From positions 34,825 to 98,824 of the forward strand of contig CANJDH010000004.1 of NCBI GenBank assembly GCA_947473125.1: 64,000 nt of DNA, written 5' to 3'. The notes beneath the pieces are model-generated. The model had not been told where the DNA came from and did not search any database. It worked only from the letters and a program-made list of their open reading frames with translations. Below, piece after piece: positions 10,125-13,400 of this stretch. A program made the translations under genes and the position numbers. This DNA comes from Burkholderiales bacterium. GTDB taxonomy: Bacteria; Pseudomonadota; Gammaproteobacteria; Burkholderiales; JAEUOS01. The first letter of the stretch is position 1. Each line of letters opens with the position of its first letter.

Positions 10125-10179
10125 CCGCTCCAGGAGCGGATGTTGGCGGCACCCCACTGAAGAACCGCTCCTGGAGCGG
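10125..10179. repeat. paired REP-like palindromes CCGCTCC-N-GGAGCGG
   Basis: Two perfect 7-1-7 palindromes lie 40 bp apart: CCGCTCCAGGAGCGG at 10125-10139 and CCGCTCCTGGAGCGG at 10165-10179. They directly follow the response regulator stop. Either could form a hairpin in RNA, but neither is followed by a T run, so a REP/BIME-type element is more likely than an intrinsic terminator. Related GGAGCGG(G/A)TTTC-type motifs recur between other genes in the window. Confidence 0.6.
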
Positions 10180-10223
10180 ATTTCATGGCAAGAGCCATGC
10201 AAAATCCTTTGTCGGCCGCTTGG

Positions 10224-10252
10224 TTGACGTTAACGTAAACGTCAAGTAGGCT
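10224..10252 (+). promoter_or_regulatory. promoter with LiuR-like MerR-family operator upstream of icmF
   Basis: TTGACGTTAACGTAAACGTC continues as AA to give a near-perfect 22-bp palindrome (10224-10245, two mismatches). It matches my memory of the ACGTTAACGT-type boxes of LiuR/MerR regulators of branched-chain acyl-CoA catabolism. The left end TTGACG can serve as a -35 box, with TAGGCT (10247-10252) as -10 at 17-bp spacing, so the operator fills the spacer as MerR proteins prefer. The gene downstream is icmF, which fits the regulon logic. No merR gene lies in the window. The palindrome is seen; the regulator is inferred. Confidence 0.6.
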
Positions 10253-10404
10253 TCGTCCTCCGGAGCACAGCACTAATGGCGTCCCGGCGCGCCGTAGGTG
10301 CCTGGAGCGCACGGCATACAATCTTTGCCCGACCCGTTTTCAGAATACCGGCGCCGCTGATCACGCCGGACGATGCAACACTACGCAAGACCACGAGGCG
10401 TGCC

Positions 10405-13400
10405 ATGACCGACCTTTCTGTGCAAAAACAGCTTGAAAGCCCGCGCCTCAAGAACAAGGTGCGCTTTGTTACCGCTGCCTCCCTGTTCGACGGCCACGAC
10501 GCCTCGATCAACATCATGCGCCGCATCCTGCAGGCACAAGGCGCCGAAGTCATCCACCTCGGGCACAACCGCTCGGTCGACGAAGTGGTCACGGCGGCCC
10601 TGCAGGAAGACGCGCAGGGCATCGCGATGTCGAGCTACCAGGGCGGGCACGTCGAGTATTTCAAATACATGGTGGATCTGCTCAAGGAGCGCGGCGGCGC
10701 TCACATCAAGATTTTTGCGGGCGGCGGCGGCGTGATCGTGCCCGACGAGATCCGCGACCTGCATGCCTACGGCGTCACGCGCATCTACTCGCCGGAAGAC
10801 GGCCAGAAACTCGGCCTGGTCGGCATGATCTGGGACATGCTCGAACGTTGCGATGTCGATCTGTCCAGCTACGCGCCCAAGACGCTTGATGCGTTGCGCG
10901 GCCCGGCCCAGCCGCAGCGCCGCGCACTGGCGCAATGGATCACGGCCATCGAAAACGGCAAGGCCGATGCCAACTTGCACAAAGCGATGCTCGACGTTGC
11001 CGCCAAGACCCGGACACCGACGCTCGGCATTACCGGCACCGGCGGTGCCGGCAAGAGTTCGCTCACCGATGAATTGATTCGCCGGTTTCGGCTTGACCAG
11101 GGCGATGGCCTGCAGATCGCCGTAATCTCGATCGACCCGTCGCGGCGCAAATCGGGCGGCGCCCTGCTCGGCGACCGGATTCGCATGAATGCGATCAACT
11201 CAGTTGGCAACCGCGCGAACATCTTCATGCGCTCGCTGGCCACGCGCGAAGCCGGCAGCGAAATCTCCAAGGCGTTGCCCGACGTGATTTCGGCCTGCAA
11301 GGTCGCAGGGTTTGACCTGATCATCGTGGAAACCTCGGGCATCGGCCAGGGCGATGCCGCGATCGTGCCGCTGGTCGACGCCAGCCTGTATGTGATGACG
11401 CCGGAGTTCGGCGCCGCCTCGCAGTTGGAAAAAATCGACATGCTCGACTTTGCCGATTTTGTGGCGATCAACAAGTTCGACCGCAAGGGCGCACCCGACG
11501 CGCTGCGCGACGTGCGCAAGCAATACCAGCGCAACCGTGAAGCCTGGAGCGTTGCCTCCGAAGACATGCCGGTCTACGGCACCATGGCGAGCCGCTTCAA
11601 TGACGATGGCGTGACCGCCCTCTACCAGGGTCTATGCCCGAAGCTCACGGAGCTGGGCCTGACTCTCAAGCAAAGCCGGCTCCCCAAGGTGAAAGTGAAG
11701 TCGTCCAGCAACCAGACGCCGATCGTGCCGCCGGCCAAGGTGCGTTACCTGTCGGAAATTGCCGACACAGTGCGTGGTTATCACGCGCAGGCAAAAGCAC
11801 AAGTGGCACTGGCGCGCGAGGCGCAGCAGTTGCGCGCCTCCAAGGCAATCGCCTCAAAAGGCGCTTCCACCAACGGTTTCAACGATGCCTCTCTGGCAGG
11901 ATTGGAGCACCTCGCTGCCGAGCGCGAAGCACGCCTCACACCCGAAGCCAGGCAACTCCTTGCCCAATGGCCCGAAATGCAGAGAGCCTACGCAGGCGAT
12001 GAATATGTCGTGAAGATTCGCGACAAGGAAATCCGCACCGACCTCACCACCACCTCGCTTTCGGGCACCAAGGTACGCAAGGTGGCCCTGCCGCGTTTTG
12101 AAGACCACGGCGAGCAACTGCGCTGGCTGCTGCTCGAAAACGTGCCGGGCTCCTTCCCCTACACCGCCGGCGTGTTCGCCTTCAAGCGCGAGAACGAAGA
12201 CCCGACGCGCATGTTCGCCGGCGAGGGTGACCCGTTCCGCACCAACAAGCGCTTCCATCATGTCTCCGAAGGCATGGCGGCCAAGCGCCTCTCGACCGCG
12301 TTCGACTCGGTCACGCTGTACGGCAACGACCCGAACCTGCGCCCGGACATTTACGGCAAGGTCGGCAATTCAGGCGTCTCGATCGCTACGCTCGACGACA
12401 TGAAGGTGCTGTACGGCGGCTTTGATTTGACCAGCCCCAACACCAGTGTCTCGATGACGATCAACGGCCCGGCGCCGACCATCCTCGCGTTCTTCATGAA
12501 CACCGCAATCGACCAGAACCTTGACAAGTTCAAGATGGATAACGACCGTGATCCCACTGCCGATGAAGCTGCGAAGATTCGCGCCTGGGTGCTGGAAAAC
12601 GTGCGCGGCACGGTGCAGGCCGACATCCTCAAAGAAGACCAGGGCCAGAACACCTGCATTTTCTCGACCGAGTTTTCGCTCAAGGTGATGGGCGACATCG
12701 CCGAGTACTTTGTCCACCACAAGGTACGCAACTTCTACTCGGTATCGATCAGCGGATACCACATCGCCGAAGCTGGCGCCAACCCGATCTCGCAGCTCGC
12801 GCTGACGTTGTCGAACGGCTTCACCTTCGTCGAAGCCTACCTTGCGCGCGGCATGCACATCGATGACTTCGCCGCCAACCTGTCGTTTTTCTTCTCCTAC
12901 GGCATGGACCCGGAGTATGCGGTGATCGGCCGCGTGGCGCGGCGCATCTGGGCCACCACCATCAAGAACAAGTACGGCGGCAACGAACGCAGCCAGAAAC
13001 TCAAGTTTCATTCACAGACTTCCGGCCGTTCGCTGCACGCACAGGAAATTGCCTTCAACGACATCCGCACCACCCTGCAGGCGCTGATCTCGACCTACGA
13101 CAACACCAACTCGCTGCACACCAACGCCTACGACGAAGCGATCACCACGCCGACCGAAGAATCGGTGCGCCGCGCGATGGCGATCCAGCTGATCATCAAC
13201 CGCGAATGGGGCATCGGCAAGAACGAAAACCCGAACCAGGGCTCGTTCATCATCGAAGAGCTGACCGACCTGGTCGAAGAAGCCGTGCTCAAGGAATTCG
13301 AAGCCATCAGCGACCGCGGTGGCGTGCTCGGTGCGATGGAGACCGGCTTTCAGCGCGGCCAGATCCAGGAACAATCGATGTACTACGAGCACAAGAAGCA

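Follow-up and report, generated by a model that had tools for sequence, protein, structure and literature searches.

A candidate LiuR operator at the icmF promoter probably links the fused isobutyryl-CoA mutase to leucine breakdown in a Burkholderiales bacterium

In a Burkholderiales bacterium, icmF, the gene for the fused isobutyryl-CoA mutase, is a well-supported predicted target of LiuR, which very probably controls both icmF and the leucine-breakdown genes of this genome. On genomic sequence, icmF thus appears as a new target of a known system, a solid extension and not a novel type of system. The prediction centers on a 22-bp dyad, TTGACGTTAACGTAAACGTCAA, situated before icmF in the window, the 64,000-nucleotide stretch of DNA that was analyzed (Table 1). 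The site is repeated in the genome, co-occurs with LiuR in other genomes and is kept there at icmF; from this we infer that the dyad is bound by LiuR as its operator, and that LiuR represses icmF until branched-chain acyl-CoAs relieve it. The probability of this reading is put at about 0.88.

Table 1. Features of the icmF upstream region (window coordinates) and of the boxes and regulator gene elsewhere in the genome (contig coordinates).
Feature	Position	Strand	Basis or remark
Candidate LiuR box before icmF	10224..10245	+	TTGACGTTAACGTAAACGTCAA; motif rarity, recurrence and conservation
-35-like hexamer TTGACG	10224..10229	+	Left arm of the dyad; consensus match only
-10-like hexamer TAGGCT	10247..10252	+	17-bp spacer (10230-10246)
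Presumed untranslated leader, ~140-150 nt	10253..10404	+	Alignment of three family members
icmF, fused isobutyryl-CoA mutase/GTPase, 1099 aa	10405..13704	+	NCBIfam NF045497
liuR, MerR-family regulator	C19:11174-11578		Pfam MerR_1/MerR-DNA-bind
Box before liuR and, divergently, the MBL-fold hydrolase gene	C19:11594-11615		15 bp before liuR
Box between liuR and the thioesterase gene	C19:11111-11132		ivd-like gene next
Box before liuB	C7:39207-39228		22-mer identical to the icmF box; 26 bp before liuB

Ten of the 11 base pairs of the dyad match, so the near-perfect palindrome claimed in the sequence-only reading is present. It had been placed exactly between TTGACG and TAGGCT; the 17-bp spacing between these hexamers holds, but TTGACG is itself the left arm of the dyad. 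Palindromy by itself is not significant, as three equally symmetrical 22-mers occur in the window against about one expected. This expectation is what speaks for a chance palindrome, with icmF transcribed from elsewhere. Such a coincidence is nevertheless extremely improbable, given that liuB has the identical 22-mer and that the box recurs in about half of 106 icmF upstream regions and is kept at icmF in the three genera compared within the family. The motif TTGACGTTNACGTNAACGTCAA occurs once in the window, where 0.00 matches are expected (none in 100 shuffles), and the 4.88-Mb genome contains four matches in all, three of them exact and the fourth with one mismatch, against 0 for the reversed control. 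Further upstream, between a response-regulator gene and the box, two near-identical perfect inverted repeats, CCGCTCCAGGAGCGG and CCGCTCCTGGAGCGG, are found 40 bp apart at window positions 10125-10139 and 10165-10179 and are followed by CATGGCAAGAGCCATG. Two repeats of this type were found against 0.04 expected, and the element at 10125-10179 is possibly a terminator or a repeat element.

All four strong copies in the genome lie beside liu, ivd or liuR genes or icmF. The copy identical to the icmF box precedes an operon that begins with liuB (methylcrotonyl-CoA carboxylase (MCC) carboxyltransferase-like) and also contains liuC (enoyl-CoA hydratase), liuD (biotin carboxylase) and liuE (HMG-CoA lyase). 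On contig C19, boxes flank on both sides a MerR-family gene that we assign to liuR from its Pfam domains and gene context, no LiuR model having come up in an NCBIfam scan of the protein. One of these boxes is followed by genes for a hotdog thioesterase and an isovaleryl-CoA-dehydrogenase-like protein (ivd), the latter assigned from Pfam domains, context and sequence reading, as it reached no NCBIfam equivalog cut-off. The same order of liuR, thioesterase and ivd-like acyl-CoA dehydrogenase genes is found in G051, G002, G048 and G066, and we take it to be the typical gene context of LiuR in liu loci. The box motif also appears to resemble the LiuR operator motif. The expectation that a LiuR homologue would be encoded in the genome is thus borne out. 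The motif had also been expected upstream of liu, ivd and mmsA genes; it was found before liuB and ivd, whereas mmsA (contig C135) has no box in this genome. The proposed tie of isobutyryl-CoA isomerisation to valine/leucine control therefore comes down here to the leucine branch plus icmF, with the valine gene mmsA unboxed. Weak matches to the 16-mer motif number 21 in the genome, compared with 32 for the reversed control; those on C3, C8, C2 and C5 do not look placed before branched-chain genes, and neither does a three-mismatch match on C16.

The box on the other side of liuR is shared with a divergent gene pair that encodes an MBL-fold hydrolase and, after it, a class I PHA synthase (L006:11594-14581, C19). 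This arrangement is kept in G051, an MBL-fold hydrolase gene is also located by liuR in G002, and in G066 icmF, the MBL gene and liuR adjoin one another. Through this box, leucine breakdown may be coupled to the storage of PHB.

Conservation of the box was assessed in 106 distinct icmF upstream regions, taken from named genomes and from the order. The box is present with at most four mismatches in 54 of them, 36 of these having at most one, and starts 37-237 bp (mostly 55-110) before the icmF start codon. The remaining regions have at least five mismatches, mostly 8-11, which is the range of shuffled palindromes, so that the distribution is bimodal. In three genera of the family to which the window belongs, GGTTGACGTTWACGTAAACGTCAAGTA is kept before icmF in an alignment in which the flanks have diverged, and the site in G051 is a perfect palindrome. 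Among 30 icmF-containing genomes of the order, the box precedes icmF in 18 of 24 with LiuR and in none of six without it (p 0.0016, uncorrected for phylogeny); one of the six LiuR-bearing genomes lacking an icmF box is represented by a contig-end fragment with just 71 bp upstream. About half of the icmF genes are boxless, for example those of the LiuR-lacking L134, L135 and L138. The box spans many Burkholderiales and some gammaproteobacteria, which places icmF in branched-chain amino acid breakdown.

The motif and the regulator also go together across the order. In a scan of 150 genomes, with a site defined by at most one mismatch and a LiuR homologue by E < 1e-20, sites were found in 27 genomes and LiuR in 56, and all 27 site-bearing genomes encode LiuR (Fisher p 1.7e-14, 150 genomes, uncorrected for phylogeny). 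Half of the 46 sites (23) fall within 400 bp of liuR, a further 13 precede icmF by 65-237 bp and 10 are found elsewhere, so that at this site strength only the liuR locus is targeted more often than icmF. The 10 other sites include liuB (boxed in each of the three members of the family to which the window belongs) and thioesterase-ivd, acyl-CoA dehydrogenase and thiolase genes; liuR, ivd, liuB and icmF are targets common to the three family members. ACGT-rich palindromes are used by many regulators, and the icmF box could in principle belong to a different regulator with a similar palindrome. This is very unlikely, however, in view of the presence of LiuR in every site-bearing genome and the location of half of the sites next to liuR. 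In addition, a homologue search with LiuR in the present genome gave a single strong match and only one other, 27% identical (E < 0.001).

The position of the dyad suggests how LiuR would act on icmF. By consensus scoring, TTGACG/TAGGCT is the top-scoring sigma-70-like pair within 10164-10404 and is thus a predicted promoter, although TAGGCT matches only three of six positions of the -10 consensus and the pair was absent from the output of a general promoter scan. The -10-like hexamer is again TAGGCT in G051 and is TACTCT in G002, both relatives in the family. Of 54 icmF boxes, 22 have a TAnnnT at spacer 17, compared with 0-10 at other spacers, the 10 at spacer 12 lying partly within the box sequence itself. 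The best sigma-70-like pair starts exactly at the site in 29 of 55 icmF upstream regions, and at the inner repeat, +6 bases, in 12 more, counts that are partly built in because the motif brings its own TTGACG. At liuB, a conserved TACAAT leads straight into the box, which overlaps the -10/start region. A normal 17-bp spacer under the operator, together with the different placement at liuB, suits a repressor that blocks the polymerase.

The alternative is that LiuR is a classical MerR-type activator that untwists the icmF promoter for the polymerase. LiuR has a MerR helix-turn-helix whose closest solved relatives are CueR and CadR, and the dyad overlaps the -35 hexamer, as is generally known for MerR-type promoters. 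MerR-type activators act on spacers of 19-20 bp, longer than the 17-bp spacer here, which is also the exact length at which TAnnnT is enriched among icmF boxes. The box following TACAAT at liuB likewise fits a simple repressor with variable placement, and activation is regarded as unlikely. LiuR has been described as a MerR-family protein that represses branched-chain amino acid use (PMC3223726), in line with repression at icmF. In this repressor mechanism, a LiuR dimer would bind the dyad and cover the -35 hexamer and the entire 17-bp spacer, keeping RNA polymerase off the icmF promoter. Accumulating branched-chain acyl-CoA intermediates, the putative inducers, would relieve LiuR, and icmF would be switched on together with thioesterase-ivd, liuBCDE and liuR, and probably also with the divergent MBL/phaC pair. 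IcmF would then interconvert isobutyryl-CoA and n-butyryl-CoA, and isovaleryl-CoA and pivalyl-CoA.

The start codon of icmF is the ATG at 10405, where similarity to two family members begins (MTD-SVQK); nothing upstream of it is kept. The reading frame is open from 10276, and this extra, non-conserved stretch up to the ATG is probably untranslated. The site starts 181 bp before the ATG, compared with 55-110 bp in most relatives, and given this unusually long leader another transcription start for icmF is possible. A start elsewhere has gained no support, the best predicted sigma-70-like promoter upstream coinciding with the box. A weaker alternative -10 candidate is TACAAT at 10317-10322. A further promoter, some 65-70 bp past the box, was also considered but dropped, since G051 has the same TAGGCT as the window and the main support for such a promoter fell away.

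The identity of the enzyme is clear from its sequence. IcmF scores 1918.5 bits against NF045497 (cut-off 1500) and combines a B12-binding domain (PF02310), a MeaB-like GTPase (PF03308) and a mutase (PF01642) in a single chain. It aligns with PDB 4xc6 over residues 16-1099 (1859 bits), and the residues aligned to Phe598 and Gln742 of that structure, presumably the positions of isobutyryl-CoA specificity, are F and Q. No other PF01642 acyl-CoA mutase was found in the genome, and no methylmalonyl-CoA mutase, so propionyl-CoA probably exits by another route. A full-length 3-hydroxyisobutyryl-CoA hydrolase was likewise not found, whereas 49 of the 150 order-wide genomes encode one; these absences are less than absolute in a genome that is ~97% complete. 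BCKDH, which forms the branched acyl-CoAs, was not identifiable among the PF00676 hits.

It is suggestive only that IcmF might take valine carbon to butyryl-CoA and so bypass a broken normal route; a PHB synthase gene next to liuR would be in keeping with such a bypass. Of the LiuR-bearing genomes, 19 of 23 that lack the hydrolase contain icmF, compared with 11 of 33 that have it (p 4e-4), an exclusion that is weak with one genome per family (median p 0.10) and is therefore treated as a lead only. Tentatively, and with the odds against it, IcmF in LiuR-bearing, hydrolase-lacking bacteria may be a LiuR-controlled, B12-dependent detour that replaces the canonical valine route, in which isobutyryl-CoA would be converted to n-butyryl-CoA and then enter beta-oxidation or PHB storage. 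An alternative role is the isovaleryl-/pivalyl-CoA reaction, as the remaining LiuR targets here are leucine genes. With the box conserved before icmF, simple assays of growth and expression could show whether valine or leucine carbon takes a B12-dependent route.

The LiuR regulon was reportedly founded in a paper by Kazakov et al. in 2009. No paper naming both icmF and LiuR was found in a search that lay outside RegPrecise and this founding paper, either of which may list icmF, and none was found on icmF gene regulation or on the branched-chain acyl-CoA substrate of IcmF in vivo. LiuR regulons are well described, with 671 sites in 103 genomes (PMC5343134). As in the known regulon (PMC5343134, PMC3223726), liuR adjoins ivd and is itself boxed, ivd and liuBCDE are targets, the operator is an ACGT-rich palindrome and its geometry is that of a repressor; in contrast, icmF is added here, probably with the divergent genes for the MBL hydrolase and the class I PHA synthase, and mmsA is unboxed. 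In Rhodospirillum rubrum, the LiuR or ILV box similarly precedes branched-chain degradation genes and is linked to butyrate metabolism, but that organism was judged unlikely to possess isobutyryl-CoA mutase (PMC7238569), whereas in the present genome IcmF exists and its gene has the box. IcmF is structurally well studied, and the Cupriavidus metallidurans enzyme (PDB 4xc6) is the same fused protein; the difference of interest is in the regulation rather than in the enzyme, and what is new here is the gene as a predicted LiuR target.
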